Assembly (NCBI GenBank): GCA_020831845.1
Contig: JAFIFV010000021.1
Span: 1 to 41,418, forward strand
DNA: 41,418 bases
Direction: 5' to 3'
From: Ectothiorhodospiraceae bacterium
Lineage (GTDB): Bacteria > Pseudomonadota > Gammaproteobacteria > Nitrococcales > Aquisalimonadaceae
A program made the position numbers and the translations under genes. The notes under the pieces were generated by a model. It was given only the letters and a program-made list of their open reading frames with translations, was not told the DNA's origin and did not search any database. Below, one piece after another: positions 18,292-34,113 of the stretch; position 1 is the stretch's first letter; the number at the start of each line of letters is the position of its first letter.

Positions 18292-18315
18292 TGGCACATG
18301 TGCCTTTTTGACACA
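18292..18315 (+). promoter_or_regulatory. Enhancer-like element (copy 1) of the sigma-54 regulon
   Basis: The sequence TGGCACATGTGCCT, four bases, GACACA matches the 24-bp consensus NGNCRCATGYGNCA-N4-GNCACA shared by four other sites in this window, with one deviation (T for A at position 14). It is 68 bases before the -24 GG of the promoter at 18382. Proposed as the binding site of an unknown enhancer-binding protein. Confidence 0.7.
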
Positions 18316-18381
18316 CTCAATCTCCGCGTTGAACTGTAAACGGTGCACGCGGATACCTTGAAGCACCTTGATACACCATAC

Positions 18382-18398
18382 CTGGCATACTTCATGCT
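18382..18398 (+). promoter_or_regulatory. Sigma-54 (-24/-12) promoter of the acidic lipoprotein gene
   Basis: The sequence CTGGCATACTTCATGCT has GG at 18384-18385 and GC at 18396-18397, the exact 12-bp spacing required by sigma-54. The predicted start is near 18409, 29 bases before the ATG. Confidence 0.75.
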
Positions 18399-18437
18399 TC
18401 GAATCGTTGTGGATCAACACACGAGGATAACGACATC

Positions 18438-18575
18438 ATGAAGTCGACATTTCGCTACGCTGGAACCGGATTGATTGCCCTGCTGTTTTCCGGTGTGCTG
18501 CTGCTCTCTGCCTGTGAACCCGTGGACGAAGACGATTTCGAGCAGATGGAGCAGGATTTCGAGGAACAGCAGTAA
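18438..18575 (+). CDS. Small acidic lipoprotein, 45 aa
   Basis: It encodes MKSTFRYAGTGLIALLFSGV then LLLSAC, a textbook lipoprotein signal with Cys at residue 26 as the lipid-attachment site. The mature part of only 20 residues (CEPVDEDDFEQMEQDFEEQQ) has eleven Asp/Glu and no Lys or Arg. GAGGATAACGAC precedes the ATG. It is followed by a strong terminator and preceded by a sigma-54 promoter and an upstream element shared with the acidic miniproteins at 32434-34348. The extremely short mature chain suggests a structural, metal- or charge-binding role at the membrane surface; no known family recognised. Confidence 0.8.
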   Translation: MKSTFRYAGTGLIALLFSGVLLLSACEPVDEDDFEQMEQDFEEQQ

Positions 18576-18620
18576 CTGACAGACTGTTGAGCGCCTCTGA
18601 CTGAATCCCCGAGAGAGTTT

Positions 18621-18654
18621 GGCCCGCCACCCCTTAGTGAGCGGGCCTTTTCTT
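18621..18654 (+). terminator. Intrinsic terminator of the acidic lipoprotein gene
   Basis: GGCCCGCCAC - CCCTTA - GTGAGCGGGCC hairpin followed by TTTTCTTT, 45 bases after the stop. Confidence 0.85.
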
Positions 18655-18844
18655 TGCCGCGAGAATTGACCCGCTGCCTTTGCGTGCACACAATCTGCTC
18701 TCGGCGATTACACGGCATCGTCCACCGACGTATACACTAGTCAGTTGAAGGCCGCCGCCCTATCAGAACCATGAGACGTGTGTGCCCGCGATTTTCATGC
18801 CGCAGCCCTCGCCTGCCGCGGCATCTTGCACAGGATCTAGCCCG

Positions 18845-20383
18845 GTGACGAATCTCCATCTGAAAATCCTGGCCCTCATACTTTGCGCGCTGGGTGTTGC
18901 CGGAGTCTGGTACAAAGTAAGTGTCATCGGCCTGCCGCTGCAGCCGGACGCCGAAACACAGACCTGGACGGTGGAAGCCCGGGTCAGTTACCAGGCCGAG
19001 GGCGGCCCCACCCAGGTCCGGCTGTTCCTGCCCGGCACGCAACCGAAGTTCAGCGTACTGGGTGAGGATTTCGTCTCCGGCAGCTTCGGCCTGGCGCGGG
19101 AATCCGAGGGTAACAACCGCATCGCGCTGTGGACAGCCCGCCGGGCCAGCGGTGAACAGACCCTGTATTACCGCATACGGCTGGCGGCCGACCGGGATGG
19201 CGACAGCGTGCTCACCGGGCCGCAACCGCCCTTCCCTTCAGTGCCGGACTACCCGGAGCCGTACGGCTCGGCGGCCAAGACCGTGCTGGAGGAGGTACGC
19301 CGGGAATCGGCGGACATCGCTTCGTTCACACGCCGCCTGCTGATCCGCTACGGAGCCACCTCACCGGACGAGAACGTACAGGTACTCCGGGAGGACCCCG
19401 ATACCGACCTGGAACACGTGGAGAACATCATCCACATTCTCGCCGGCGCGCGTATTCCGGCGCGTCCGGTCAAGGTGCTTCATCTTCGGGACCGCATGCG
19501 ACGGGGCACGCTGGATACGTTTCTGGAAGTGCATAACGGCACGGAGTGGGTGGCCTTCAACCCCCGGACCGGGCAGCGTGGTTACGAGGATGACATGCTC
19601 GTGTGGTACCGCGGCGCCGGCGAACTACTGCAGTTGAGTGGCGGCAGCGGAGGCCAGGTCGAATTCTCGGCCGCGCTGACCGTGCGCCAGATGGTGTCCA
19701 TTGCCGAGCAACGGGCCGCGCAACGCGGGTCGCTGTTGATGGATTTCTCCCTGCTTGGCCTGCCGGTGCAGACCCAGAACGTCTACCGTCTGCTGCTGCT
19801 GATCCCCATCGGTGCGCTGGTGATGGTGTTCATGCGCAACGTAATCGGGGTCAGTACCTTCGGCACCTTCATGCCTATTCTGATTGCCCTGGCGTTCCGT
19901 GAAACCCAGCTGCTGTGGGGCATCTTCCTGTTCACCTTCATCGTGGCCATGGGCCTGGCAATCCGGTTCTACCTGGAAAACCTCAAGTTACTGCTGGTGC
20001 CGCGCCTGGCGGCGGTACTTACGGTCGTGGTGTTGCTTCTGGCCGCGGTGACCATACTGACGCACAAGCTGGGACTGGAGCGCGGGCTCTCCATCGCGCT
20101 GTTCCCGATGGTCATCCTGGCGATGACCATCGAGCGCATGTCCCTGGTGTGGGAAGAGCACGGCCCTTCCGAGGCGATCAAGCAAGGGGTGGGCAGCCTG
20201 GTGGTGGCCGTCATCGGCTACCTTGTGATGTTCCGACCGCAACTTGAGCATCTGGTGTTCTACTTCCCCGAGCTGCTCCTGATCGTACTGGCCGTGACGC
20301 TGCTGATGGGCCGCTATACGGGCTACCGGCTGACGGAGCTATGGCGCTTCCGCCACCTGCTACGGGAGATGAACAAGTCATGA
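18845..20383 (+). CDS. Inactive transglutaminase fused to 7 transmembrane helices
   Basis: A protein of 512 residues from the GTG at 18845 (AGGA about 10 bases upstream), which gives a clean N-terminal anchor (LHLKILALILCALGVAG). Residues ~25-300 are periplasmic: a beta-rich domain and a transglutaminase-like fold (FTRRLLIRYGA ... EHVENIIHILAGARIPARPVKVLHLRDR ... WVAFNPRTGQRGYEDD) lacking the catalytic Cys. The C-terminal ~200 residues hold seven hydrophobic helices, starting with LLLLIPIGALVMVFMRNVIG and the conserved GVSTFGTFMPILIALAFRET. Members of this family sit beside an alpha-L-glutamate-ligase-like ATP-grasp protein and often a RimB-like retropepsin; the protease is absent here. The stop overlaps the next start (ATGA). 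Confidence 0.92.
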   Translation: MTNLHLKILALILCALGVAGVWYKVSVIGLPLQPDAETQTWTVEARVSYQAEGGPTQVRLFLPGTQPKFSVLGEDFVSGSFGLARESEGNNRIALWTARRASGEQTLYYRIRLAADRDGDSVLTGPQPPFPSVPDYPEPYGSAAKTVLEEVRRESADIASFTRRLLIRYGATSPDENVQVLREDPDTDLEHVENIIHILAGARIPARPVKVLHLRDRMRRGTLDTFLEVHNGTEWVAFNPRTGQRGYEDDMLVWYRGAGELLQLSGGSGGQVEFSAALTVRQMVSIAEQRAAQRGSLLMDFSLLGLPVQTQNVYRLLLLIPIGALVMVFMRNVIGVSTFGTFMPILIALAFRETQLLWGIFLFTFIVAMGLAIRFYLENLKLLLVPRLAAVLTVVVLLLAAVTILTHKLGLERGLSIALFPMVILAMTIERMSLVWEEHGPSEAIKQGVGSLVVAVIGYLVMFRPQLEHLVFYFPELLLIVLAVTLLMGRYTGYRLTELWRFRHLLREMNKS

Positions 20384-21357
20384 TCCGACTGTTCCACGCG
20401 CTCAAAAAGGCCGGGATTCTCGGCATGAACCGGCGCAACGCGGACTACATCATGCTCTTCAACCCGCGGCACAATTACCCCCTGGTGGACGATAAACTGC
20501 TGACAAAACGGTTGGCGGAAGAAGCGGGCATTCATGTTCCGAAGCTGTATCACATGATCCAGATCGAGCGGCAGATTCGCCAGTTGCCGAAGATGCTGGA
20601 GGGCATCAACGATTTCGTGATCAAACCGGCCCACGGCAGCGGCGGCAACGGCATCATGGTCATCACCGGCTCCCGCAACGGCAGCTATGTGCGCGGCAGT
20701 GGCCTGCTCACCAACATCGACGAACTCGGCCATCACATCTCGAACATCCTCAGCGGCATGCATAGCCTGGGTGGTCAGCCGGACCAGGCCATGATCGAAC
20801 AACGGGTGATTTTCGACCCGATGTTCGATCGCATCAGTTACCAGGGTGTGCCGGACATCCGCACCGTCGTGTTCCGTGGCGTGCCGATCATGGCCATGGT
20901 GCGCCTGCCCACCCGCATGTCCGATGGCAAGGCCAACCTGCACCAGGGGGCGGTGGGTGCCGGGCTGGACATGGGGTCCGGTCGCACGACCACCGCGGTC
21001 TGGAAGGAAACCTTCGTCGACACCCACCCGGATACCGGCGACCCCATCGCCGGGCTGCAGATTCCGCAATGGGAGACACTGCTTGAACTGGCCGCCCGCT
21101 GCTACTCCCTGGCCGAACTGGGTTATCTGGGCGTTGACGTGGTGCTGGACAAGTACCAGGGACCGCTGGTGTTGGAGTTGAACGCCCGCCCTGGGCTCAG
21201 CATTCAGTTGGCCAACCGCGCCAGCCTGCTACGCCGGCTGCAACGGGTGGAGGCGCTGGATGCCATTCCCGACAGCGCCGAGGAGCGTGCCCGACTGGGG
21301 CAACGACTGTTCGGGCTGGACACCCCGCCGGTCGCCCAGGTGCTGGCGCCCGCCTGA
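20380..21357 (+). CDS. Alpha-L-glutamate ligase-like ATP-grasp protein
   Basis: A protein of 325 residues related to RimK, which ligates glutamate to a carboxyl acceptor. ATP-grasp features are present: DDKLLTKRLAEEAGIHVPKLY, the phosphate loop FVIKPAHGSGGNGIMVI (about residues 79-95), PDIRTVVFRGVPIMAMVRLPT, and the metal-binding end LVLELNARPGLSIQLANR. The actual substrate is unknown; the near-invariant pairing with the 7TM-transglutaminase protein suggests the two modify or sense an envelope component. It is translationally coupled to the upstream gene by a 4-base ATGA overlap. Confidence 0.9.
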   Translation: MIRLFHALKKAGILGMNRRNADYIMLFNPRHNYPLVDDKLLTKRLAEEAGIHVPKLYHMIQIERQIRQLPKMLEGINDFVIKPAHGSGGNGIMVITGSRNGSYVRGSGLLTNIDELGHHISNILSGMHSLGGQPDQAMIEQRVIFDPMFDRISYQGVPDIRTVVFRGVPIMAMVRLPTRMSDGKANLHQGAVGAGLDMGSGRTTTAVWKETFVDTHPDTGDPIAGLQIPQWETLLELAARCYSLAELGYLGVDVVLDKYQGPLVLELNARPGLSIQLANRASLLRRLQRVEALDAIPDSAEERARLGQRLFGLDTPPVAQVLAPA

Positions 21358-21444
21358 AACTACCCCGCCGCCGCCTGCGCGGTCGTCTTTCCGAATATTG
21401 CACATTGCCCGAAAGTGTGATTGCCCACACAGAATTTCACGCGT

Positions 21445-21606
21445 AATGCAGTCACACTGCATTCATCTCAAGGTGATTGTCGTGAAAGAGTAGTTGTCTC
21501 CTCCAAGGCGCTTGGGATTGGGCAAAGGCCAATGGATGCGGCTGTATGCCCCGAAAAACCCTTTCAATGAAGCGCATTCGGCAGGCCCCCGGGCCTGCCT
21601 TTTTCT
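21445..21606 (+). ncRNA. Possible small RNA or leader with intrinsic terminator
   Basis: The 333-bp gap between the ATP-grasp gene and the porin contains a perfect 7-bp hairpin (AATGCAG-TCACA-CTGCATT, 21445-21463) and, 115 bases on, a strong terminator (GGCAGGCCC ... GGGCCTGCC then TTTTTC, 21580-21606). A weak sigma-70-like pair (TTGCCC, 17 bases, TAATGC) lies just before. No convincing open frame lies between them. The terminator is over 220 bases after the ATP-grasp stop, so it may end that operon or an independent RNA of about 150 nt. Confidence 0.35.
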
Positions 21607-21690
21607 TTTCCGCCCCCATTCCTTGCCTCCCTCACGCAGACACGGCACCATCTGCCAAACCACTTCCTCGATCACAAGAACGAGACCAAC

Positions 21691-22728
21691 ATGCCCTTAC
21701 CAATGCCTGTCCGCCTGCCGCTGGCGCTCTGTTGCGTCCTGCTGCCCGCCGTCGCGCACGCAGTGGAGGTCAACCTTTACGGCCGTGTGCACGCGGGCTA
21801 TGCCAACCTGGATACCTCCCGCGCCGGCAATGCCGGCATCATCAACGACGAGCGCGGGCACAGCAGGCTCGGCGTAGATCTCGCCGCTCCACTGGGCGAC
21901 AACGTTGGCGGCCTGGCGCGTATTGAGCTTGGCTTCGACCCGACCAACTGGGACGGTGACGATGACCCGGTGAGCGTGCGCGAGGCGTGGGTGGGCCTGC
22001 AGGGTGCCACCGGCCGGCTCACCGTGGGCAGGCTTCCCGGTGTTTACAAGACCACCGGCGGTACCCGCTGGGACCCGATGAGCTCGACCTTGCTGCAGCA
22101 ACGTCGCACCGGCGGCATGTCGGGGGGCATCTACGGCCACAGCAACTACCTGGATCGAGCACTGGAATACCGAACCCCATCTCTGGGCGGTCTCCAGCTC
22201 AGGTTGCAGTACGGTGTCGACGACCGTGAAAACGATGGTGACTACCTGATCGGGCTGTCCTATCAGGAAGGGCCATGGGAGTTGATCGCTGCATGGTCCA
22301 GGAACAACGACGAAGAGGTGGCTTCAGGGGAACGGCGTAACTGGAAGGCCGGCATCCGTTATGCAGCCGATGAGGGCGCGCTGGTCTACCAGTACGAGGA
22401 CGCGAAAGTCCGCGACCGCCTGGATACAACGGATCTTCGTCGCGTGGACGGTTCGCTGGAGATCGGCAACTTCGACATGCCGTTCAATACGCGCCACCAC
22501 ATGCTGGGGCTGCAACAGAACCTGCAGAGCAGTTTCATCTGGCTGGCCGTGGGCTACCTGAACGCGTCCGCCGACGACTTCGACGTTATCAGTTACACCG
22601 CCTCGTGGACCTTGCTGTTCAGTCAGAACATCCGCTGGTACCTGGGCTACCAGCACCAGGATCGGGAGCGCGGCTACGAGTCCGGCCGGCTCAACGTGGT
22701 GGCCACCGGGTTCCAGCTGGATTTCTGA
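21691..22728 (+). CDS. Gram-negative outer-membrane porin
   Basis: A protein of 345 residues with a signal peptide (LPLALCCVLLPAVAHA, cleavage before VEVNLYGRVHAGY). Alternating hydrophobic beta strands follow throughout, with VNLYGRVHAGYANLD at the start, SRLGVDLAAPLGDNVGGLARIELGF, VREAWVGLQGATGRLTVGRLPG as loop-3 region, and the terminal strand GRLNVVATGFQLDF ending in the Phe that targets BAM assembly. It fits the general trimeric porin family for diffusion of small solutes. The many Asp/Glu in turns (NWDGDDDPV) fit a halophilic host. The ATG at 21703 is an alternative start; both give the same mature protein. Confidence 0.85.
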   Translation: MPLPMPVRLPLALCCVLLPAVAHAVEVNLYGRVHAGYANLDTSRAGNAGIINDERGHSRLGVDLAAPLGDNVGGLARIELGFDPTNWDGDDDPVSVREAWVGLQGATGRLTVGRLPGVYKTTGGTRWDPMSSTLLQQRRTGGMSGGIYGHSNYLDRALEYRTPSLGGLQLRLQYGVDDRENDGDYLIGLSYQEGPWELIAAWSRNNDEEVASGERRNWKAGIRYAADEGALVYQYEDAKVRDRLDTTDLRRVDGSLEIGNFDMPFNTRHHMLGLQQNLQSSFIWLAVGYLNASADDFDVISYTASWTLLFSQNIRWYLGYQHQDRERGYESGRLNVVATGFQLDF

Positions 22729-22735
22729 GCATGAT

Positions 22736-23365
22736 TCAGGAGGGTCTCGCGGGATCCTGAAAACGGGATTCCACGGCCAGCAAACGGCGTTTGCGCGCCA
22801 CTCCCCAGCGGTAGCTGCCGATGCCACCGGCCCGCGGCACCACACGATGACAGGGGATCAGCAGCGCAACCGGATTGGCCCCCACCGCACGGCCCACGGC
22901 CCGGCCCGCGGTCGGCTGCCCGATCTGTTCCGCCAGTTGCGCGTAGGTCACAGTCCGGCCCGGCGGCACGGTGATCAGCGAATTCCAGACACGCGCCTCG
23001 AAGACGGATGCCACGACGTCCAGCACCAGTGGGTGCCGTGGGTCTCCGGTCAGCAGCGGCCGCAGTGCCTCGGCCGTGGCGTATTCATCGATCTCGATAC
23101 GCACGTCGGGACAACGGCAGGCCAGCTGCTCCCGCTGCTGCACATCGGAAGAGCCGGGACGACGGAACATCAGATGGCTGATCCCCAAGCCGGTCACGGC
23201 CACGAACATGCAACCCAGCGGCGTGACGTGCCAGCCTACCCGAAGCTCCGGGTGGGTGGGGCGGTGCGGCAAGGGGACTGTCGCGCGCAGCCGGGGCACA
23301 ATGCCCGCTTGCAGCCAGCGCCACCAGAGTTCCAGGCCACGGCTTCCAGCCTCTGCAATCTCCAT
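22736..23365 (-). CDS. Methylated-DNA-protein-cysteine methyltransferase (Ogt/Ada C-terminal type)
   Basis: A direct-reversal repair protein that moves alkyl groups from O6-alkylguanine to its own cysteine. From the ATG at 23365 it has 209 residues: an N-terminal lead, an RNase H-like half (LRVGWHVTPLGCMFVAVTGLGISHLMF), and the DNA-binding active-site half VWNSLITVPPGRTVTYAQLAEQIGQPTAGRAVGRAVGANPVALLIPCHRVVPRAGGIGSYRWG with the acceptor Cys in PCHRV. The layout resembles the C-terminal half of Ada without the Ada zinc domain. The start is uncertain: a GTG at 23428 would add 21 residues and neither start has a strong ribosome site. Confidence 0.88.
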   Translation of the reverse strand: MEIAEAGSRGLELWWRWLQAGIVPRLRATVPLPHRPTHPELRVGWHVTPLGCMFVAVTGLGISHLMFRRPGSSDVQQREQLACRCPDVRIEIDEYATAEALRPLLTGDPRHPLVLDVVASVFEARVWNSLITVPPGRTVTYAQLAEQIGQPTAGRAVGRAVGANPVALLIPCHRVVPRAGGIGSYRWGVARKRRLLAVESRFQDPARPS

Positions 23366-23507
23366 GGGAACCACCCACTGCCGGTACAGGGAGACGCCGA
23401 TCCGTACCGGCACCCAGAGGCCGGCCACTGCATCGCCGTACCCATAAAACGTAGCACGGGCTGCGGAAGTTTCTTCCCGCCAACGGCAAGCTCAGGCAAA
23501 GACGCGT

Positions 23508-26162
23508 TCAGGGACGGCTGACCGCGTTCAGCCAGAACTCCGGTTTGTGCAACCCGTAACCCTGGCCATAGTCGATGCCCATCTCCCGCAGCCGGGCGGC
23601 CAGGGCGTGATCCTCTACGAACTCCGCGATGGTGCGGATACCCATGGCCGTGGCTACGCGGTGAATGGATTCCACCACCGCCTGGTTCACCTCATCGCTC
23701 AGCAGGGTCTGCACGAACTGGCCATCGATCTTCAGGTAATCGATCGGAATGCGCCGAAGATAGCCGAACGAGGACAGGCCGCTGCCGAAATCATCCAGCG
23801 CCACCCTGCTGCCCAGCTCCCGTATTTCGCTGAAGAATTCCACCGCCTGGCCAAGGTTGGTAATGGTGGCTGTCTCGGTGATTTCGAAGCACACGCGGCT
23901 CGGGCGAACGCCGTAATGGTGGAACGCGCGCCTGACGAAGTCCGGGAATTCGTTGTCACTCAGCGTGGTACCGCTGATGTTGATGGAATAGAAGCCTTCG
24001 CAATCCCCGACCTCGCCGCCGTCGGCCAGCGCGGCGAACACATTGGCAAGCACCAGCCGGTCCAGTCGCGGCATCAGGTTGTAGGTTTCCGCTGCAGGGA
24101 TGAAAACGCCGGGGGGCACCAGTTCGCCGTTCTCCCCGCGCATACGCAACAACACTTCATGGTGAAGCGGCGGCCGGTTGATGTCGCAGAGGCTGTGGAT
24201 GCCCTGGCGGAACAGCACCAGCCGGTCTTCCTCCACTGCGCGGTTGATGCGCCCGACCCAGGCCACCTGCTCCCGCCGTCGCATCATGATGCCGCCGTCC
24301 GCCTCATCCGCGCCGACACGCTGCACACGGTTGCGGCCCTGCTCCTTGGCCGCATAGCATGCACTGTCGGCCGCGCTCAGCAGCTCACTGACCACCTGCT
24401 GCGAGCCGGAGCGCACCGGCACCAGACCAATGCTCATGCCCGGCACGTAGACATTCCCTTCCCAACTGAACCGGAAGCCCCGCACGGCATCGATCAGCGC
24501 GTTGGCCACCGAGGTGGCTTCCTCCAGCTCGACGCCACGCAACAGCACTCCGAACTCGTCCCCACCGAGGCGTGCCAGCGTGTGCCGGGGCTCCAGTTGG
24601 CCGGAAAGCACGACGGTCAACCGCTGCAGCAACTCGTCGCCGGCCGGATGGCCGCAGCTGTCATTGACCACCTTGAACTGGTCCAGGTCCATGTAGAGCA
24701 GCGCATGATGCGCTTCCCCCTCCGCGGATGGGCGCTCCAGCAGCTCGCCCAACCGAGTCTCGAATTCCCGTCGGTTGTACAATCCGGTCAGGGGGTCATG
24801 GGAGGCGAGGTAGGCCATGCGCTGGTACATACGGCGCTGCTCGGTAACATCTGTCAGCGTCACCACCGCACCCATCACGACACCCTGGCGGTTGCGCACC
24901 GGTTCAGCCGCCAGCGTCACCGAATACACCGCTCCATCCTCCCGGATCAGCACATAATGGCCGGGTGGCGATACCGCCTCGCCGCTGTCCAGGCAGAGCT
25001 GCACCGGATCCGCCAGGGGCTGGCCGGTCTGCTCTTCATACAACCTGAACAATTCCACGAAGCGAGAGCTTTCCTGTCCGGGGAATGCATCCGGCACCAG
25101 GCTCTTCGCAACGCCGTTCATGTACTCGATCCGCCCGGCAATGTCCGTCCGCACCACCGCCTCGCCGATGGATTCCAGTGTGATCTGGGCGAGTTCCTTT
25201 TCCTTGTGGAGGGCGGCCCTCATGGCCACCTGCGCACTGATATCGTGCACCTGTGTGAACATGGAGACGAGCTGTCCGCGTTCGTCGCGGATCACGGAGT
25301 TGTACCATTCGCACTCGACCATCCGGCCTTCGCGGGTGTAGTTGCGATTGCGATGGGTGCAGCGGTTGATCTCGCCCCGGAGCATCCGCCCCATCACCTC
25401 GGCAACCGCGGGCGCGTCCTCTTCCACGAGAAAGCGCCATTCATCCGGGCACCGGCCGAGGACCTCCTCCGCCCGCCAGCCGAAGATGCGTTCGCATTGC
25501 GGCGACCAGCGCACGAGCCGGAAATCCTGATCCCATTCCGCGACCCCCAGCGGCGAATTGCTGAAATGCTCCTCCAGACGGGACACGGCACCCGGATCGT
25601 CCAGATCAACAGGCAATGCCTTCTCGGCCTCGCGGGCGCGGATGGCATCCATTGCCAGGTCGGCCAACAGTCGCAACTGTTCCACTTCCGGCGCACCGAA
25701 ATCCGGGCGGGGTTCCGTATCCACGATGCAGAGTGTGCCGATGATGTCCCCACCGCTGGCGCGGAGTGGAGCGCTGGCATGGAAGCGCACCGCTGTGGGT
25801 CCGGTAACCAGGGGATTGCTCCGGGAACGGGGGTCGGAGGCGGCATCCCGGATCACCACCGGCCCATCGTCGTCCAGCGAGGCCTGGCACAGCATGATTT
25901 TCCGGGGGATCGCTCTGACCTGCTTACCGGCGCAGGCCTTGAACCACTGGCGCTGGTCGTCGATGAAACCGATACCGGCGAACGGTATGTTGAACGACAA
26001 GGCCGCGAGTGCCGCCACCTGATCGAAAGCGCGCTCCGGAAGGGTATTCAGCAGATTCAGTTCACGGAGGGCGGAGAGACGCCGCTCCTCCCTGGCGCGA
26101 GCAACCCGGGCACTTTGCTTGTCTGACGTGGTCTGCTCAGGCATTGCTCTACTCGCGGCCAT
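23508..26162 (-). CDS. GAF-PAS-PAS-GGDEF-EAL cyclic-di-GMP signalling protein
   Basis: About 884 residues, with no membrane segments. Domains in order are GAF (about 25-170, NIPFAGIGFIDDQRQWFKAC ... IIGTLCIVD), PAS (about 190-315, SPLGVAEWDQDFRLVRWS), a second PAS (about 325-440), GGDEF (about 450-620, with an intact GGDEF signature near residue 533) and EAL (about 625-880). The EAL signature reads E-V-L-L-R, and the later motifs FEITETATI and DDFGSGLSSFGYLRRIPIDYLKIDG are intact, so both synthesis and breakdown of c-di-GMP are possible. The frame extends upstream only through a TTG; an ATG at 26144 is an alternative start. Confidence 0.9.
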   Translation of the reverse strand: MAASRAMPEQTTSDKQSARVARAREERRLSALRELNLLNTLPERAFDQVAALAALSFNIPFAGIGFIDDQRQWFKACAGKQVRAIPRKIMLCQASLDDDGPVVIRDAASDPRSRSNPLVTGPTAVRFHASAPLRASGGDIIGTLCIVDTEPRPDFGAPEVEQLRLLADLAMDAIRAREAEKALPVDLDDPGAVSRLEEHFSNSPLGVAEWDQDFRLVRWSPQCERIFGWRAEEVLGRCPDEWRFLVEEDAPAVAEVMGRMLRGEINRCTHRNRNYTREGRMVECEWYNSVIRDERGQLVSMFTQVHDISAQVAMRAALHKEKELAQITLESIGEAVVRTDIAGRIEYMNGVAKSLVPDAFPGQESSRFVELFRLYEEQTGQPLADPVQLCLDSGEAVSPPGHYVLIREDGAVYSVTLAAEPVRNRQGVVMGAVVTLTDVTEQRRMYQRMAYLASHDPLTGLYNRREFETRLGELLERPSAEGEAHHALLYMDLDQFKVVNDSCGHPAGDELLQRLTVVLSGQLEPRHTLARLGGDEFGVLLRGVELEEATSVANALIDAVRGFRFSWEGNVYVPGMSIGLVPVRSGSQQVVSELLSAADSACYAAKEQGRNRVQRVGADEADGGIMMRRREQVAWVGRINRAVEEDRLVLFRQGIHSLCDINRPPLHHEVLLRMRGENGELVPPGVFIPAAETYNLMPRLDRLVLANVFAALADGGEVGDCEGFYSINISGTTLSDNEFPDFVRRAFHHYGVRPSRVCFEITETATITNLGQAVEFFSEIRELGSRVALDDFGSGLSSFGYLRRIPIDYLKIDGQFVQTLLSDEVNQAVVESIHRVATAMGIRTIAEFVEDHALAARLREMGIDYGQGYGLHKPEFWLNAVSRP

Positions 26163-27543: not shown

Positions 27544-27660
27544 GCCTTGTACTCCTATGCCCTGTTGGAATGAGCATTAGGATAAGGCTTGGCTTTAAGA
27601 CAGAAAAAGAATGAAAAACTCTATGGTAAGAAACTGACAGCATACCGACCGGTACACTGT

Positions 27661-28518: not shown

Positions 28519-28579
28519 GCTACCTCCAGTAACGGGAATCGAACGGGGGGTATCGTACGCAAGCGCGGTGACAGTTCTG

Positions 28580-28852
28580 TTACAGCGTCGCCTTGTCTCG
28601 GGGAGGGCCGGGAATCAGCGCGCTGGTCCGGGCCACGTAGTCCGCATAGCCGGGACGGGATTCCTTCAGACTCCGTTCCAGCAGAGTCACGCCGGATACC
28701 CGGACGATCAGAAAGATCATCAGTGCGACGCTGACCACGGTCCACCAGCCGCCGCCGGCAGCGGCAATCAGGAAGAAGCCCATCCAGACCAGCACCATCA
28801 ACGACGGGGCCAGTGCCAGGCCGAGTAGCATGACGGCGGCCGAGCCGGACAT
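28580..28852 (-). pseudogene. Truncated DUF1295 (steroid-reductase-like) membrane protein
   Basis: Ninety residues corresponding to the C-terminal third of DUF1295 proteins, which are normally around 260 residues: VWMGFFLIAAAGGGWWTVVSVALMIFLIVRVSGVTLLERSLKESRPGYADYVARTSALIPGPP. The N-terminal membrane helices and the R-H-P-N-Y-F-G-E-type motif are missing. Yet it has its own ATG overlapping the stop of the upstream gene (TGATG), so it may be translated. I read it as a remnant left by an internal deletion, or a shortened protein still coupled to its operon. Confidence 0.6.
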
Positions 28853-29193
28853 CAGGCACGCTCCCGGTCAGGTAGCAGCACATCCCGCAGGCGGGCATGC
28901 GACTCCACGCGGAAGAGCTGGATCAGCACATACGTGGTAATGGCAACGGAACCCAAGGTCAGCACAAGCACCAACCAGAGCAGTCGGGAAACCCAGCTCC
29001 GCTCCTTGTAGGCGATCCACAGCCAGATGGTGAGAAAGCTGATATAGATATCCACCAGCGTGGTCTGGATCCAGGCATCGCCGGAGAGATCTCGCAGCGC
29101 CGCGAGCACACCGCGGTCCAGGCTGGCGTACACGATCATGCCGATGATCAGGACCAGCGCGAACAGGAAGGCGGCTCTGAGCCAGAGAATCAT
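28852..29193 (-). CDS. DUF1475 family membrane protein
   Basis: A protein of 113 residues with three hydrophobic helices (LRAAFLFALVLIIGMIVYASL, TTLVDIYISFLTIWLWIAYKE and LLWLVLVLTLGSVAITTYVLIQLF) and the DUF1475 signature around DAWIQTTLVDIYI ... WIAYKERSW. Function unknown; homologues are often next to lipid- or methyltransferase genes. The ATG at 29193 overlaps the stop of the methyltransferase by 4 bases (ATGA), and its own stop overlaps the next start, so three genes are translationally coupled. Confidence 0.8.
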   Translation of the reverse strand: MILWLRAAFLFALVLIIGMIVYASLDRGVLAALRDLSGDAWIQTTLVDIYISFLTIWLWIAYKERSWVSRLLWLVLVLTLGSVAITTYVLIQLFRVESHARLRDVLLPDRERA

Positions 29194-30233
29194 TCTGCCT
29201 GCTCCGGTGCGCGGAACAGATAGTGGCCCACATACCACTCGTTGCCGCGATTGAAACCGAACAGTTCGGCGCAAGCCAGGAAAAAGACTCGCCAGCGGTT
29301 TATCCAGCGCTCCACCTGGTCGGCGCCATAGACCTCGGCAAACACGCTCTGCAGCTCCTGCCGGGCACCGTCCATGCGCTGAAGCCAGGCTTCGGATGTA
29401 CGCTGGTAATGACGGCCGTTCACACGCCAGTGCGCCTCCAACTGGAGGTGTTGCTGCATGTGGTATGGAAGCGAATCGGACGGCATCAGGCCGTCGGTAA
29501 AGAAATGCCTGCCCATCCAGTTGTGCTCGCCTTCGATCTCGAAAATGTACGGCTGTTCTCGATGACAGAACACATGCATGAAGAATGTGCCGTTCGGGGC
29601 CAGCCAGCCCGAGATGCGGCGCAGCAGTTCCGGCCAGTTGCGCATGTGTTCGAACATTTCCAGCGACACCACACGGTCGAACCGTTCACTGGTCTGGAAA
29701 TCATTCATGTCGACGGTGACCACGGACAGGTTCTTCAGCCCCCGCTCGTGCCGCCTGGCTTCGATGAACGCGCGCTGGGAGGACGAATTGGAGACAGCGG
29801 TCACGGCACTGTTGGGGTAGTGTTCGGCCATCCAGAGCGACAGCGCACCCCAGCCGCAGCCCAGTTCCAGGATGCTGTCGCCATCCTTCAGCGACGCCCG
29901 TTCGCAGGTCAATGCCAGCATCCGATCTTCCGCCTGGTCGAGAGTCCCCGTGCCCTCTTCCCAGAGGCAGCAGGAGTACTTGAGACGATGACCAAGGACC
30001 TGCTGGAAGAAGCCCGCAGGAAGCTCGTAATGCTGCTCGTTGGCCCTCTCGGTGGACAGCGCCACCGGACTCTTGCGCATCTCCAGAAGCAGGCTGCGGG
30101 TGCGTGCGTGCCAATCCTCGCAATTCCCGGCATAACTCTCGTCAAGCCGTTGCCGCAACAACCGACGTATGCCGGCACGAACCAGCATGTCCGGTACGAT
30201 CCCTCGCTCCACCAGCCCGATCAGTTGCTGCAT
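29190..30233 (-). CDS. CFA-superfamily SAM methyltransferase, coclaurine N-methyltransferase-like
   Basis: A protein of 347 residues from the ATG at 30233 (GGAG 7 bases upstream). The N-terminal segment IGLVERGIVPDMLVRAGIRRLLRQRL, then HYELPAGFF...LKYSCCLW, the SAM loop ILELGCGWGALSLW (residues 121-134), VSLEMFEHMRNWPELL, and the late motifs WMGRHFFTDGLMPS, WRVNGRHYQRTSEAWLQRMD and WRVFFLACAELFGFNRGNEWYVGHYLF match plant-type coclaurine N-methyltransferases and their bacterial relatives. It is therefore not a canonical cyclopropane synthase, though it shares the fold. The substrate in bacteria is unknown to me. It heads a coupled operon with DUF1475 and a DUF1295 remnant. Confidence 0.85.
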   Translation of the reverse strand: MQQLIGLVERGIVPDMLVRAGIRRLLRQRLDESYAGNCEDWHARTRSLLLEMRKSPVALSTERANEQHYELPAGFFQQVLGHRLKYSCCLWEEGTGTLDQAEDRMLALTCERASLKDGDSILELGCGWGALSLWMAEHYPNSAVTAVSNSSSQRAFIEARRHERGLKNLSVVTVDMNDFQTSERFDRVVSLEMFEHMRNWPELLRRISGWLAPNGTFFMHVFCHREQPYIFEIEGEHNWMGRHFFTDGLMPSDSLPYHMQQHLQLEAHWRVNGRHYQRTSEAWLQRMDGARQELQSVFAEVYGADQVERWINRWRVFFLACAELFGFNRGNEWYVGHYLFRAPEQAE

Positions 30234-30268
30234 GTTTGACTCCGCGCGGCCATTTATTAAACATAAAT

Positions 30269-30285
30269 TGTACAATATATGTACA
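30269..30285. promoter_or_regulatory. Palindromic operator-like site TGTACA-N5-TGTACA
   Basis: TGTACA ATATA TGTACA is a near-perfect 17-bp palindrome 36 bases upstream of the methyltransferase start, in an AT-rich stretch likely to include its promoter. TGTACA half-sites are reported for MerR-type light/B12 regulators of the LitR/PplR group, but with a longer spacer, so the regulator is only a guess. Confidence 0.5.
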
Positions 30286-30313
30286 CACCGGGCGCAACTT
30301 AATTTGCGGGGAC

Positions 30314-30348
30314 AAAAAAACGGCCGCCCCCGCTACGGGAGCAGCCGC
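30314..30348 (-). terminator. Intrinsic terminator after the alanine symporter
   Basis: On the minus strand CGGCTGCTCCCG - TAG - CGGGGGCGGCCG is followed by seven T residues, 15 bases after the stop of the symporter gene. Confidence 0.8.
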
Positions 30349-30363
30349 TGACATGAAGGAAAA

Positions 30364-31746
30364 TCAACCGTCGGACTTGTTATTCACCTTCGCCCGCAAC
30401 GCCTCGGCCATGTAGTCCGCTTTCTCCCGGGCCAGCACCCCAGCCAGCAGGATCAGGGCAATCAGGTTCGGGGCGGCCATCAGGCCGTTCAGCGTATCCG
30501 CCACATCCCATACCGCTTCCAGCCCACCGATGGCCCCCACGAACAGGAACGCCAGGAAGATCACGCGATACGGTAGGACCACCCTGGAGCCGAACAGGTA
30601 CTCCCAGCTTTTCTCGCCGTAGAAATTCCAGGTCAGCATGGTGGTATAGGAGAACAGCACCAGCGCAACGATGACGATGTAACCACCCAGCCCGGGCAGG
30701 CCGGAGGAGAACGCGCTGGACGTGAGGTCGGCTCCTGTGGTGCCGTCCTGGAAGACGCCGGTCACCAGGATGACCAGCGCGGTCATGGTGCACACCACGA
30801 GGGTATCGATGAAGACTTCCCACATGCCCCACATCCCTTGCGCAACAGGCTTGTTCCTGGCCTGCGCGTAGACGATGGAAGCCGAGCCCAGCCCCGCCTC
30901 GTTGGAGAAGATACCGCGGGCGATCCCGTAGCGGATGGCCATGGCCACGGTTGCACCGGTGAAGCCGCCCACCGCTCCCATCGGCGTAAAGGCATGCTGG
31001 AAGATCAGGCCAAAGGCGGCAGGTATCTGATCATAGAAGGAAACCAGCACCCCAATCGCGCCGATCACGTAGACGATGGCCATGAACGGAACAATCTTCT
31101 CGGCAGTGACCGCAATACGCCGTATGCCGCCAAGCGTGACCGCGCCGACCAGCACGATGGCAATCAGGCCCGTGAGCCATGGCGGCACGTTGAAGCCGGT
31201 ACTCATGGCGGCGCCCATGGTGTTGGCCTGCACCATGTTGCCGATGCCGAAAGCAGCCAGGCCTGCGAAGAAGGCGTACAGCACGCCCAGCCATTTCCAG
31301 TTGGAGCCCAGGCCCTTCTCGATGTACCAGAACACACCGCCGGAGATGTTGCCGTCTGCATCCTCATGACGGTACTTCACACCCAGCGTGGCCTCGGCCA
31401 TCTTGGTGGCCATGCCAACCAGCGCAACCATCCACATCCAGAACACCGCGCCCGGCCCACCGAGCGCGATGGCGGTGGCCACGCCCGCGATATTGCCTAC
31501 GCCAATGGTCGCCGCCATGGCGGAACTCACCGCCTGGAAAGGCGTAATCGCTCCCGGCTCAGTGGCTACCTGCCTCTTGAACAGCCGGCCAAACGTCATT
31601 CTCCAGGCGAAGAGCAGATGCGTGAACTGGAAAAAGCCCAGACGAATAGTCAGGTAGGCGCCTGTGCCTACCAGGAGAATCATGAAAGGAGGTCCCCAGA
31701 CAATACCGTTGACAAAGCTATTGATATCCAGCAGAAGATCCACCAT
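30364..31746 (-). CDS. Sodium:alanine (AGCS family) symporter
   Basis: A protein of 460 residues and about ten to eleven membrane helices. It couples Na+ entry to uptake of alanine or glycine. Family signatures are visible: GVGNIAGVATAIALGGPGAVFWMWMVALVGMATKMAEATLGVKYR (about residues 82-126), ANTMGAAMSTGFNVPPWLTG, and RYGIARGIFSNEAGLGSASIVYA (about 268-290). The ATG at 31746 has AAAGGAG 8 bases upstream and gives the usual N-terminus; the open frame further upstream is not needed. It is monocistronic with its own terminator. Confidence 0.92.
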   Translation of the reverse strand: MVDLLLDINSFVNGIVWGPPFMILLVGTGAYLTIRLGFFQFTHLLFAWRMTFGRLFKRQVATEPGAITPFQAVSSAMAATIGVGNIAGVATAIALGGPGAVFWMWMVALVGMATKMAEATLGVKYRHEDADGNISGGVFWYIEKGLGSNWKWLGVLYAFFAGLAAFGIGNMVQANTMGAAMSTGFNVPPWLTGLIAIVLVGAVTLGGIRRIAVTAEKIVPFMAIVYVIGAIGVLVSFYDQIPAAFGLIFQHAFTPMGAVGGFTGATVAMAIRYGIARGIFSNEAGLGSASIVYAQARNKPVAQGMWGMWEVFIDTLVVCTMTALVILVTGVFQDGTTGADLTSSAFSSGLPGLGGYIVIVALVLFSYTTMLTWNFYGEKSWEYLFGSRVVLPYRVIFLAFLFVGAIGGLEAVWDVADTLNGLMAAPNLIALILLAGVLAREKADYMAEALRAKVNNKSDG

Positions 31747-31986
31747 GAGCCCAGCTCCTTTTTTGTGCTCCCCAGGACGAGCGCGACCGACTACCTCGTC
31801 AGCCTGTCTCAGCGACAAGCATGCCTTGCATCGCCCTTCGTTGTGCCCATCGAGTGCCTTCCCGGAAAGCATCAGCGGACACCAGCCCGCCGGCCCTTCC
31901 GAGCGCAATATGAGCAAGGCCAGAAACCGCTGTCATGTCGGGACCGACCTTGCTCGTCTGGAGTATAGGCAGTGACCGGGAAAATG

Positions 31987-32010
31987 GGACACATGTGACA
32001 GCGGGACACA
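31987..32010 (+). promoter_or_regulatory. Enhancer-like element (copy 2) of the sigma-54 regulon
   Basis: GGACACATGTGACA, GCGG, GACACA; a full match to NGNCRCATGYGNCA-N4-GNCACA. It ends 54 bases before the -24 GG of the promoter at 32063. Confidence 0.75.
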
Positions 32011-32062
32011 GACTTCAGAAAGGTACTGAATCTCAAGTAACTGATTTATATGACGTCATTCC

Positions 32063-32080
32063 CTGGCATGGTGTCTGCTT
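32063..32080 (+). promoter_or_regulatory. Sigma-54 promoter of the CU-rich small RNA
   Basis: CTGGCATGGTGTCTGCTT: GG at 32065-32066 and GC at 32077-32078. Predicted transcription start near 32090. Confidence 0.8.
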
Positions 32081-32089
32081 ATTATGGAA

Positions 32090-32197
32090 TGAAATGGTAG
32101 GAATCTCTGCCGAAAGGCAGCCCTCAATTCTTGCTGATTCCTCATTTCTACTCCTCTCTCTCCTCTTCAGCCACCGCTCACAGGGTGGCTTTTTTTT
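32090..32197 (+). ncRNA. Putative sigma-54-dependent small RNA with CU-rich tract
   Basis: About 108 nt from the predicted start to the terminator. Two hairpins flank an unstructured middle. The 5' hairpin is CTGCC-GAAA-GGCAG (32107-32120), a GNRA tetraloop. The 3' one is GCCACC-GCTCACAG-GGTGGC (32170-32189) followed by eight T residues. Between them lies a pyrimidine run, CTCCTCTCTCTCCTCTTC (32151-32168), complementary in type to Shine-Dalgarno sequences. No ribosome site with a plausible open frame is present (an ATG at 32097 is not preceded by one). The layout fits a trans-acting antisense regulator. Not matched to a named sRNA family. Confidence 0.65.
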
Positions 32198-32288
32198 GTT
32201 CATCGCCCTTTAAGTAAGCACCCATCCGATTCCCGTTCACCCTGGGTTCAGCACCGATCGTGGCCAGGAGCAAGGCGCCCTATCAGCG

Positions 32289-32318
32289 TGACCTGACGTC
32301 ACATGTGACATCAGGTCA
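32289..32318. promoter_or_regulatory. 30-bp near-perfect palindrome upstream of miniprotein gene A
   Basis: TGACCTGA ... TCAGGTCA flanks a perfect GTCACATGTGAC core; only one position pair breaks the symmetry over 30 bp. Its core and right part coincide with the shared enhancer-like element at 32297-32320 (CGTCACATGTGACA, TCAG, GTCACA), which ends 56 bases before the -24 GG at 32377. Confidence 0.8.
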
Positions 32319-32374
32319 CACCCGCCACCTTGCGGCGGGGGCCGTAACTTGCTGATTCTCCGAGCCCTCCCTAG

Positions 32375-32391
32375 CTGGCATGGTCGCTGCA
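32375..32391 (+). promoter_or_regulatory. Sigma-54 promoter of acidic miniprotein gene A
   Basis: CTGGCATGGTCGCTGCA with GG at 32377-32378 and GC at 32389-32390. Predicted start near 32402, giving a ~32-nt leader. Confidence 0.82.
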
Positions 32392-32433
32392 CTACTCTTG
32401 GTGACATTTCGAAGCGAAAGTAAAGGAGTAACA

Positions 32434-32631
32434 ATGACTGCTCTCAAACTGCGCGAACTGCTGATGACTCTTCTGATCGCTCTTGGTCTGACCTTCGGCT
32501 CCGCCGGCGTCGCCATGGCGGACTGGGGTGATGAGCAGGACTCCCAGGATGAGCACCAGGAGGACACCTGGGATTGGGAAGAAGATGATGATGATGACGA
32601 TGAGTGGGATGACGGCGACGACGACTGGTAA
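32434..32631 (+). CDS. Secreted Asp/Glu-rich miniprotein A, 65 aa
   Basis: MTALKLRELLMTLLIALGL then TFGSAGVAMA is a strong Sec signal peptide (cleavage after Ala29). The mature 36 residues start DWGDEQDSQDE, contain 23 Asp/Glu and no Lys or Arg, include a WDWEEDDDDDDEW block, and end DDDW. AAGGAG lies 5 bases before the ATG. It is the first of three paralogues (33427, 34163) with nearly identical signal peptides, and is flanked by its own sigma-54 promoter and terminator. The very high negative charge suggests binding of divalent cations or of basic partners in the periplasm. I know no described family for it; it does not carry a PEP-CTERM or LPXTG sorting tail. Confidence 0.85.
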   Translation: MTALKLRELLMTLLIALGLTFGSAGVAMADWGDEQDSQDEHQEDTWDWEEDDDDDDEWDDGDDDW

Positions 32632-32662
32632 GTTGTCGGGCTAGCCAAGCCCCTCATCCAGA

Positions 32663-32686
32663 AGCCACCGCCATGGCGGTGGCTTT
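32663..32686. terminator. Bidirectional intrinsic terminator between miniprotein A and hemerythrin
   Basis: AGCCACCGCC-AT-GGCGGTGGCT followed by TTTTT on the + strand; a weaker A/T flank on the other side may serve the convergent hemerythrin gene. Confidence 0.8.
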
Positions 32687-32690
32687 TTCG

Positions 32691-33125
32691 TTACTGGGCG
32701 GCCTGCATTTCCCGAAGATAGTCTTTGGCCAGCGATTCCTTCTGACCCTCGTCAAGCACGCGCCCGGCCAGCTGGAACACCTCATGCTCTTCCTCATCGA
32801 GGTGGTGCTGAACCAGTTCCTGCAGTTTCTTCGCGGCCACCAACCAGCCTGGGGAACTGAAATCCGTGTCGGCAAGCTCCGCGACCAGTTCATCGATCTC
32901 ATGGTGTTCTGCGACGCCGTGCCTGGCCTTTTCCTGCGTCATGTCGAATGCCATCATTGGCACATAAAGCGTCCTCTCCTCGGCGGCCGCGTGTTTCTCC
33001 AATTCCTTGCGAATGCGGACGAACAACTCCTCCCGTGCTTCAGTGTGGCCCTCTGTCCTCACCAGCAGATCCAGCAATGTTCTCTGCTTCTGATGATCCT
33101 CACGCAATGCTTCGAATAATGTCAT
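32691..33125 (-). CDS. Hemerythrin (HHE) domain protein
   Basis: A protein of 144 residues forming a four-helix bundle with the di-iron ligands in order: His in EDHQKQRTLLD (about residue 10), His and Glu in ELEKHAAAEERTLY, the His pair in AEHHEIDELV, and the His residues of QHHLDEEEHEVF. Such proteins bind O2, NO or iron, or sense redox state. AGGAG lies 8 bases before the ATG at 33125. It sits convergent with miniprotein A and divergent from miniprotein B. The upstream region on its strand carries a weak sigma-54-like site near 33199-33212, so it might belong to the same regulon. Confidence 0.9.
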   Translation of the reverse strand: MTLFEALREDHQKQRTLLDLLVRTEGHTEAREELFVRIRKELEKHAAAEERTLYVPMMAFDMTQEKARHGVAEHHEIDELVAELADTDFSSPGWLVAAKKLQELVQHHLDEEEHEVFQLAGRVLDEGQKESLAKDYLREMQAAQ

Positions 33126-33197
33126 CCCGGGTGCTCCTGTCGTAGTCAGTCGTCACTCAGGAATTACGAACGCGAAGCCAGGATGGTTCCCGCGGCC

Positions 33198-33213
33198 AGC
33201 CACACAATTGCCA
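33198..33213 (-). promoter_or_regulatory. Weak sigma-54-like promoter candidate for hemerythrin
   Basis: On the minus strand TTGGCAATTGTGTGGCT has GG and GC at the required 12-bp spacing but deviates from the consensus (TGGCAA rather than TGGCAC/T, and TGGC rather than TTGC). The palindrome at 33272-33295 lies about 90 bp upstream of its predicted start. Confidence 0.35.
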
Positions 33214-33271
33214 ACACATCCGGGAGTGCGCCGTCGCATAAAGACGACAGCAAGGAAATCCGATCTCCGAG

Positions 33272-33295
33272 GGGCACATGTGCCAATGGGGCACA
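33272..33295 (+). promoter_or_regulatory. Enhancer-like element (copy 4) of the sigma-54 regulon
   Basis: GGGCACATGTGCCA, ATGG, GGCACA; a full match to the shared consensus. It ends 70 bases before the -24 GG at 33366 and lies between divergent hemerythrin and miniprotein B genes. Confidence 0.75.
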
Positions 33296-33363
33296 CCATA
33301 AACGCTTGAAACAGGGCTTGCAGAAAACACTTTATATCATTGTTTTTCAACAAAGCACATGAG

Positions 33364-33380
33364 CTGGCACGGAGTCTGCA
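33364..33380 (+). promoter_or_regulatory. Sigma-54 promoter of acidic miniprotein gene B
   Basis: CTGGCACGGAGTCTGCA is close to the full consensus, with GG at 33366-33367 and GC at 33378-33379. Predicted start near 33391. Confidence 0.85.
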
Positions 33381-33426
33381 AAAGTCTGATTGCAACTTTT
33401 CAAAAGCGAAGCAAGGAGACGAAAGC

Positions 33427-33606
33427 ATGACTGCTCTCAAACTGCGCGAACTGCTGATGACCCTTCTGATTGCCCTGGGCCTGTCCGTCGGCTCTGCCGG
33501 CGTTGCCATGGCTGACTGGGGTGAAGAGGAAGATGCTCAGGACGAGTATGAAGACACCATGGATTGGGAAGAGGAAGATGACGATGATGAGGACGACGAC
33601 TGGTAA
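33427..33606 (+). CDS. Secreted Asp/Glu-rich miniprotein B, 59 aa
   Basis: The signal peptide is MTALKLRELLMTLLIALGL then SVGSAGVAMA, with cleavage after residue 29. The mature 30 residues run DWGEEEDAQDEYEDTMDWEE then EDDDDEDDDW, with 21 Asp/Glu and no Lys or Arg. The final TMDWEEEDDDDEDDD block is identical in paralogue C. AAGGAGACGAAAGC precedes the ATG and is also nearly identical to the leader of C. The first ~90 bases of A, B and C are almost the same at DNA level, which points to recent duplication or gene conversion with the mature parts diverging. Function unknown. Confidence 0.87.
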   Translation: MTALKLRELLMTLLIALGLSVGSAGVAMADWGEEEDAQDEYEDTMDWEEEDDDDEDDDW

Positions 33607-33629
33607 GTTCCAGTCGCTGATCGTCCAGA

Positions 33630-33658
33630 CCGCCGGCTGTAGGCCGGCGGTTTTTTTT
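33630..33658 (+). terminator. Intrinsic terminator of miniprotein gene B
   Basis: CCGCCGGC-TGTA-GGCCGGCGG hairpin then eight T residues, 24 bases after the stop. Confidence 0.88.
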
Positions 33659-33945
33659 GCCCTGCCTATTACCCCGACGTTCCCAGAGCCGTCATCGCGC
33701 CGACGCACGATAGACGGCGTGCGCCTCCCTACTTCCCCCTGCTTCCGACGCGGAAGCGGATGCTCGACCCCCTGCTTGCGGGAAGAGGCCCCCGATGACG
33801 CCTCCTGGGGGCCCGGGCCATAGGTTCTGCCGGCGTAGCGGGTGCCGACCCGGCCCCCCAATTGGCTCCCTGGATGGAATTGAGATCGAAGGCGCTACGC
33901 TCTGGGGTATGATGATCACGAGGAAAGCGACTACTGAGCGCTATT

Positions 33946-33993
33946 CGCTCTTTCGAAAACCGTCGCTCAATGCCGACGGTTTTCGAAAGAGCG
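33946..33993. repeat. Perfect 20-bp inverted repeat with 8-base loop
   Basis: Arm 1 at 33946-33965 (CGCTCTTTCGAAAACCGTCG) and its exact complement at 33974-33993 are separated by CTCAATGC. There is no following T-tract, so it is not a standard terminator. It lies in the otherwise empty ~360-bp stretch 33659-34016 between miniprotein genes B and C; I find no supported gene in the rest of that stretch. Confidence 0.9.
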
Positions 33994-34016
33994 AGGCCCG
34001 GCACAGATGGTCAGAA

Positions 34017-34040
34017 GTGCGCATGCGTCAGATTGTCACA
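34017..34040 (+). promoter_or_regulatory. Enhancer-like element (copy 5) of the sigma-54 regulon, degenerate
   Basis: GTGCGCATGCGTCA, GATT, GTCACA. It keeps CATG, the C and G positions and the right half-site of the consensus, with T for G at position 2. It ends 58 bases before the -24 GG at 34099. Confidence 0.6.
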
Positions 34041-34096
34041 CCCCCTCTCTTCCTCCATCAATAATTAAATCATTGTTTTAAAAACAATTAGCGATA

Positions 34097-34113
34097 CTGG
34101 CACAGCTCCTGCT
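34097..34113 (+). promoter_or_regulatory. Sigma-54 promoter of acidic miniprotein gene C
   Basis: CTGGCACAGCTCCTGCT with GG at 34099-34100 and GC at 34111-34112. Predicted start near 34124, ~39-nt leader. Confidence 0.82.

Follow-up and report, generated by a model that had tools for sequence, protein, structure and literature searches.

The stretch of DNA studied here, which we call the window, is the whole 41,418-nucleotide contig JAFIFV010000021.1 of the Ectothiorhodospiraceae bacterium assembly GCA_020831845.1 (contig C50 of genome G000, which has 158 contigs and 4.69 Mb). It contains five -24/-12 (sigma-54-type) promoters, each preceded by a 24-bp element and followed by a short unit, and an earlier sequence-only reading had taken these for a putative new sigma-54 regulon with its own enhancer element. 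Pattern matching located all five promoters and all five elements at the coordinates claimed for them, and the proposal is supported by the sites and by their conserved recurrence upstream of orthologous genes. The elements and promoters (pattern matches) and the products of the five units are as follows.

18292..18315, + strand: element 1 (core 18299-18315), one deviation from the pattern of the sequence-only reading
18382..18397, + strand: -24/-12 promoter, spacer 67 bp
18438..18575, + strand: 45-amino-acid acidic predicted lipoprotein (LSAC lipobox by eye; mature CEPVDEDDFEQMEQDFEEQQ)
31987..32010, + strand: element 2 (core 31994-32010)
32063..32078, + strand: -24/-12 promoter, spacer 53 bp
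32090..32198, + strand: predicted small RNA of about 105 nt, with a terminator-like hairpin (32169-32190) and a CU-rich unpaired stretch
32297..32320, + strand: element 3 (core 32304-32320)
32375..32390, + strand: -24/-12 promoter, spacer 55 bp
32434..32631, + strand: 65-amino-acid predicted exported acidic protein, paralogue A
33272..33295, + strand: element 4 (core 33279-33295)
33364..33379, + strand: -24/-12 promoter, spacer 69 bp
33427..33606, + strand: 59-amino-acid predicted exported acidic protein, paralogue B
34017..34040, + strand: element 5 (core 34024-34040), one deviation
34097..34112, + strand: -24/-12 promoter, spacer 57 bp
34163..34348, + strand: 61-amino-acid predicted exported acidic protein, paralogue C

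The boxes are of the TGGCAY-N6-TGC type with a GG-to-GC distance of 12 bp in all five cases, which marks them by sequence as sigma-54-type promoters, and the genome has an rpoN gene (contig C122, 235.6 bits against a cut-off of 22.8). The spacers between element and TGG measure 53, 55, 57, 67 and 69 bp, in agreement with the 54-70 bp to the GG that had been reported, and the two element copies said to carry a single deviation are those at 18292 and 34017. The description of the products as four tiny acidic exported proteins and one RNA also stands: the proteins are 45-65 amino acids long and predicted to be exported, and their mature parts consist of 50-68% aspartate plus glutamate, with cleavage points, export and lipidation all assigned by eye from the N-termini. 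The acidic family seems to be an orphan, with three proteins, one of them probably from the cluster in G000 itself, found by a word-based search of 5.8 billion in which relatives can be missed.

In the fifth unit (32063), no open reading frame (ORF) of at least 40 amino acids on the + strand begins inside the transcript, and a 92-amino-acid + strand ORF with its start upstream of the promoter runs across it. In folding, the transcript surpasses 200 of 200 shuffled sequences (z -3.0), and its 3' end has the terminator-like hairpin followed by a U run; an Rfam scan of 31900-34420 returned no family above its threshold. We noted that the unpaired CU-rich stretch CUACUCCUCUCUCUCCUCUUC is complementary to ribosome sites of the AGGAG type, among them the sites of the three acidic paralogues, and through this stretch the predicted RNA could regulate translation.

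Whole-genome site searches were made with patterns, each run against its reversed pattern as a control. The element GNCRCATGYGNCAN4GNCACA occurs exactly in three places in the genome, all three inside the window, and with up to one mismatch in eight places, five of them inside the window. With up to three mismatches there are 91 forward and 59 reverse matches, compared to 56 and 59 for the reversed pattern, so most of these loose matches are background. By itself, the plain -24/-12 pattern is frequent (63 places vs 35 for the reversed pattern), and the element therefore carries much of the information. Element and promoter as a single pattern were found in three places in G000, and the core repeat described below with a promoter, a more relaxed pattern, in five, and in both cases the reversed pattern had no match. 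Recent duplication of entire promoter-gene units was rejected as the sole cause of the common element, since the five promoter regions (element to start codon) have little common sequence beyond the motifs; the regions of 33272 and 34017, upstream of paralogues B and C, have two further common stretches of 13-15 bp.

The element can be divided into the half-sites GNCACA, TGTGNC, N5 and GNCACA. It is present as had been described, except that the conserved core is not the palindrome on its left but the two right halves, which form a 17-bp inverted repeat TGTGNC-N5-GNCACA; in most cases the third half-site flanks it on the left. The core repeat followed by a -24/-12 box (spacer 45-75, TGGCAN7TGC), which we call the composite, was found in 20 places spread over 13 of the 54 order genomes, while the reversed pattern gave none; when CACATGTG was required as well, there were nine places in seven genomes, again with none reversed. 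The left half-site, which was absent from the 20-place search pattern, is nevertheless exact in 12 of these places and within one mismatch in 18. Presence of the element upstream of orthologous genes in related genomes had been set beforehand as a condition for the regulon, and it was searched for and found. Among 20 further repeats in other genomes, chosen among the matches listed, three precede a box and an acidic lipoprotein gene, one has a weak box and no acidic lipoprotein gene, and 16 have no box; the three lipoprotein boxes (TGGCGC, TGGCCC and CGGCAT) had been missed by the order-wide composite search because they depart from TGGCA. Among 369 genomes drawn across the class, the composite was found in two, G000 and G373, and in the order of G373 (two of 47 genomes) the same repeat is part of a composite in a relative, G424.

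Within G000, the core repeat alone occurs nine times, compared to two for the control. Seven of the nine copies precede a -24/-12 box, two of these boxes being less regular (on contig C75 at 125 bp, and on contig C150 with AGGCAC). The copy at C73:63858 has no fitting box and looks like background, and the copy at C31:4049, which has only a weak box 119 bp away, is probably background too. The seven places together with 34097, whose repeat has one mismatch, give eight predicted promoters, so the regulon proposed for the window holds for its five promoters and extends to at least three more on other contigs.

The genes behind the site recur in kind. A tiny acidic lipoprotein (CEPVDEDEF-like) lies behind it and ahead of an RloB-type membrane protein in eight genomes (G000, G005, G007, G008, G009, G010, G016 and G017); in the window, the RloB-type gene is at 18782 and scores 474.7 bits to NF052267, under the cut-off of 900. 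Orthologues of the MTALKLRELLMT (MTxLKLRELLMT) acidic protein are found behind the site in L031, an Ectothiorhodospiraceae metagenome-assembled genome, and in G010. The site precedes other predicted acidic exported proteins in G006, G013 and G014, another acidic lipoprotein and a DUF4168-like protein in G018, and a DUF4168-like protein in G037. Outside the window in G000, it precedes a DUF4168 gene on C75, with the -24/-12 box 125 bp downstream, a TraX-family gene on C110, and on C150 the lipoprotein CDDQGPAEEAGEEIDD, with a DUF1328 gene just downstream; lipoproteins of the CDDQGPAEEAGEEIDD type also have a core repeat and irregular box in G011, G012 and G016. The predicted output of the regulon in G000 would thus be three polyacidic exported proteins, two acidic lipoproteins, a DUF4168 exported protein, a TraX-family protein and a small RNA.

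The window had been said to encode no activator, which is correct, and we found a strong candidate on C75. There, the repeat lies between the DUF4168 gene and a divergent kinase-regulator pair. The kinase is a membrane histidine kinase with HisKA, HATPase and weak HAMP domains, and the response regulator has the receiver (PF00072), sigma-54 interaction (PF00158) and Fis-type helix-turn-helix (PF02954) domains that define the NtrC type. The sigma-54 contact motif GAFTGA is present in the C75 gene and in all 32 loci, of 36, that the motif filter could read.

We searched for the kinase by scoring up to 28 candidates per genome in the order and up to four per genome in the class, so orthologues may be missed where only part of the candidates was scored. 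Matches were found in at least 25 of the 54 genomes of the order and, after a partial match in G040 was dropped, 24 order loci were analyzed. In 23 of them, the DUF4168 and kinase genes are divergent, and the remaining locus ends at a contig border. The repeat is found within 500 bp upstream of the kinase exactly in 8 of the 24 and with up to one mismatch in 20 (shuffles: mean 0.63, maximum 4), and in 18 the side towards DUF4168 has a -24/-12-type box at a distance of 45-125 bp from the repeat. Across the class, the kinase was found in at least 13 of 369 genomes, and the repeat within one mismatch is upstream of it in 5 of the 12 loci apart from G000 (shuffles: mean 0.21, maximum 2); by BLAST, three of those five have other small exported proteins in place of DUF4168. 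In G373, the composite is followed by a DUF4168 gene, which lies directly downstream of the regulator. Both composite genomes of the class belong to the 13 with the kinase (leaving out G000, one of one, p 0.03), and in the order the kinase is present in 11 of 13 composite genomes vs 13 of 41 others (p 0.001, uncorrected for kinship). The kinase-DUF4168 pair is present in four families of the order, and acidic genes with the site in two. As a separate observation, in the class loci L121, L122, L123, L124 and L125 the place of DUF4168 beside the kinase is taken by unlike small exported proteins of about 120-150 amino acids with cysteines.

Sigma-54 activator domains gave 25 matches in G000, 19 strong and six weak. 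The recognition helix SRRTLYR belongs to the C75 regulator only among the 18 of 19 strong activators that are readable to the C-terminus (the nearest are PRRTLNE and SRATLYR), and its orthologues keep the helix as [SG]RRTLYR with few changes. One case, L120 of G339, has SRQTLYR as its helix and an intergenic site, TGTAACAATATGAAACA, without the conserved G, so regulator and site have possibly changed jointly.

Based on these results, we consider it likely that the five promoters belong to one sigma-54 regulon under an undescribed two-component system encoded on C75, which would putatively bind TGTGNC-N5-GNCACA. Because the site recurs upstream of the same kinds of genes and beside the pair, this unnamed sensor-regulator pair is predicted to switch on all units together.

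Several observations weigh against this assignment. Six of the 24 order loci have no -24/-12-type box on the DUF4168 side, and the boxes were scored without a chance control; a repeat within one mismatch is missing from four of the 24 order loci and seven of the 12 class loci. The class-wide association with the kinase apart from G000 depends on a single composite, and the order-wide p-value ignores kinship. Thirteen of the 24 kinase-bearing order genomes have no composite at the searched spacing, and the composite-bearing genomes G008 (82% complete) and G013 (96%) gave no kinase match among the up to 28 candidates scored in each. Of the 54 genomes of the order, G000 is the only one in which the small RNA was found. 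A different activator is located less than 4 kb from the core repeat at C31:4049, and adjacency places a repeat near an activator, which is not the same as binding by it.

These points bear most on the possibility that there is one sigma-54 regulon but that another activator binds the repeat, the C75 pair being only the neighbour of one target, the DUF4168 gene. There are 19 strong sigma-54 activator domains in G000 to choose from, the link to C75 is one of adjacency, two composite-bearing genomes are without a kinase match among the candidates scored, and the C31 activator has a core repeat nearby. Nevertheless, 20 of the 24 kinase loci in the order and 5 of the 12 in the class retain the repeat next to the kinase, and in three of those five DUF4168 is missing by BLAST. 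A scan for the repeat within 1.5 kb of the 19 activator domains found one copy, with one mismatch (L072); the C75 copy, 2 kb from its domain, is outside this range. The SRRTLYR helix is found in no other readable activator, and the single case of G339, in which the helix and the usual G of the site both differ, points the same way. We therefore regard another activator as unlikely.

The spacers provide evidence of a different type. Enhancer-type sigma-54 promoters usually consist of a repeat, an integration host factor (IHF)-like site and a -24/-12 box at fixed distances. Allowing up to one mismatch, we searched 23 sites for the IHF pattern, namely the 20 composites of the order and those at 34097, L031 and G373, and found an IHF-like site in nine spacers, compared to a mean of 1.18 and a maximum of 5 in 300 shuffles. 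Seven of the nine are at spacer position 23-25. Of the 14 spacers that measure 53-57 bp, 10 carry the pattern YAAN4YTGWT with its first base at position 23-26, and 2000 rounds of simple shuffling gave 0.12 on average and at most 2; this pattern was composed after the spacers had been inspected. In the window, the IHF pattern search located three sites.

32034..32046, + strand: IHF-like site CAAGTAACTGATT, between element 2 and its promoter
32345..32357, + strand: IHF-like site TAACTTGCTGATT
34066..34078, + strand: IHF-like site TAAATCATTGTTT

This arrangement can be compared with the idea that the repeat is an operator for sigma-70-type promoters and the -24/-12 boxes are due to chance or secondary. 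The left part of the element, CACATGTG, is a perfect palindrome of a type bound by many dimeric regulators, as that idea would require. Repeat and box at a limited distance in 20 places with none reversed, the fixed place of the IHF-like site in short spacers, and the boxes behind seven of the nine repeats in G000, even with the two less regular ones on C75 and C150, make it very improbable.

Under the C75 two-component system, the steps would be as follows. The sites and their conservation, the architecture, the adjacency of repeat and kinase/activator, and the presence of rpoN are seen in the sequence, and from them we infer binding, phosphorylation, bending by IHF and co-activation. An extracytoplasmic signal would activate the kinase, and the phosphorylated response regulator would then bind the 17-bp repeat as dimers, with the left third half-site as a possible additional contact. 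Where spacers are 53-57 bp, IHF would bend the spacer at a fixed place, and the AAA+ domain with its GAFTGA motif would open the sigma-54 polymerase at the -24/-12 site.

To place the C75 proteins among known systems, NCBIfam cut-offs were applied to the C75 regulator and to 10 others of the 19 strong activators of G000. The best-scoring models for both C75 proteins were those of AtoS-AtoC, yet both are far under the cut-offs (AtoC, NF008469, 429.5 vs 714; AtoS, 193.2 vs 646). The regulator was likewise rejected as NtrC (TIGR01818, 422.9 vs 558.6), PrsR (TIGR02915, 395.8 vs 502.6), GlrR (NF011695, 335.1 vs 763) and ZraR (NF007689, 332.4 vs 760), as was the kinase as ZraS (NF007688, 175 vs 479). 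GlrR (QseF) and NtrC are NtrC-type response regulators, as the C75 regulator is; NtrC sites are 17-bp repeats with a 5-bp centre, and GlrR drives a small RNA. G000 has a separate NtrC, which exceeds both cut-offs with 755.5 and 751.1 bits, as well as a GlrR-like protein that scores 595.5 against a cut-off of 763.

Among solved structures, ZraS scores best as a relative of the C75 kinase core. As in the ZraPSR system, according to the available parts of PMC8249747 and PMC7657598, a small exported protein is encoded divergently from the kinase-regulator pair and the site lies in the intergenic region between them, and sigma-54 dependence, established for ZraPSR, is predicted here. The C75 partner, unlike that of ZraPSR, is a DUF4168 protein (Pfam DUF4168) and not ZraP; structure searches with it gave no significant match, and the term DUF4168 was not found in the literature searched. 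In the portion of PMC8249747 at hand, ZraR has one high-affinity region in vitro, and cited chromatin immunoprecipitation sequencing work adds 25 targets.

The PrsK-PrsR system has a similar geometry, with a 17-nt upstream motif that averages 62.8 nt before the -24/-12 motif and ends in TTTACA (PMC1569441, available text). It also combines a kinase and an NtrC-type regulator with many single-gene units for exported proteins, and it too was found through cross-genome comparison of sites and regulators (same source and extent). G000 encodes a separate true PrsR, L066 on contig C126 (709.8 bits, cut-off 502.6), and therefore a PEP-CTERM regulon is probably present too. We give almost no credence to the possibility that the units in the window are that PEP-CTERM regulon, despite the matching architecture and the true PrsR, since the site here ends in GNCACA and not in TTTACA as in the available text of PMC1569441, the C75 regulator is under the PrsR cut-off, and the proteins of the regulon show no PEP-CTERM tail by eye, the tail that marks PrsK-PrsR targets. 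By its sequence, the C75 system would be a sigma-54 two-component regulon that has a site, a regulator and targets of its own, of a kind known from PrsKR and ZraPSR, for which a regulator is now nominated.

Other genes lie around these units. A hemerythrin-domain gene (32691-33125, - strand) sits between acidic paralogues A and B. A TerB-family gene (17729-18316, - strand) is divergent from the lipoprotein gene; its longest ORF overlaps element 1, so its true start is probably further in. At 4968-6653 (+ strand) there is a tyrosine-recombinase-like ORF that, by eye, resembles an integron-type integrase, and there may be a mobile element or cassette array nearby.

The function of the regulon is the weakest step. 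The polyacidic exported proteins, the lipoproteins, the RloB-type neighbour and the ZraS core as best solved relative of the kinase suggest an envelope or ionic/osmotic stress response. In the available part of PMC12239564, rloB and rloC of Pseudomonas aeruginosa are linked genetically with secreted retropepsins in hypoosmotic tolerance. Against this, the functional theme depends on neighbours (RloB-like) and acidity only. From the names of relatives (Ectothiorhodospiraceae, Aquisalimonas) and general knowledge, we take the lineage to be halophilic. We offer only as a tentative and rather doubtful suggestion that halophilic Gammaproteobacteria own an envelope-stress pathway in which an ancient kinase/sigma-54-activator/DUF4168 module, single-target in most lineages, became a regulon in one family when sites were placed before newly arisen genes that encode tiny polyacidic exported proteins and lipoproteins, and before one small RNA, and that these products might jointly form a polyanion shield at the cell surface against ionic or osmotic change.

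An orphan regulon thus gains a likely regulator, a site and a target list at once, and an unnamed two-component system becomes directly testable. Its targets include the seemingly orphan acidic family, DUF4168 and DUF1328. Given that the kinase-DUF4168 pair is present in four families of the order and the site-bearing acidic genes in two, a regulator with one local target may have grown into a regulon around new genes.

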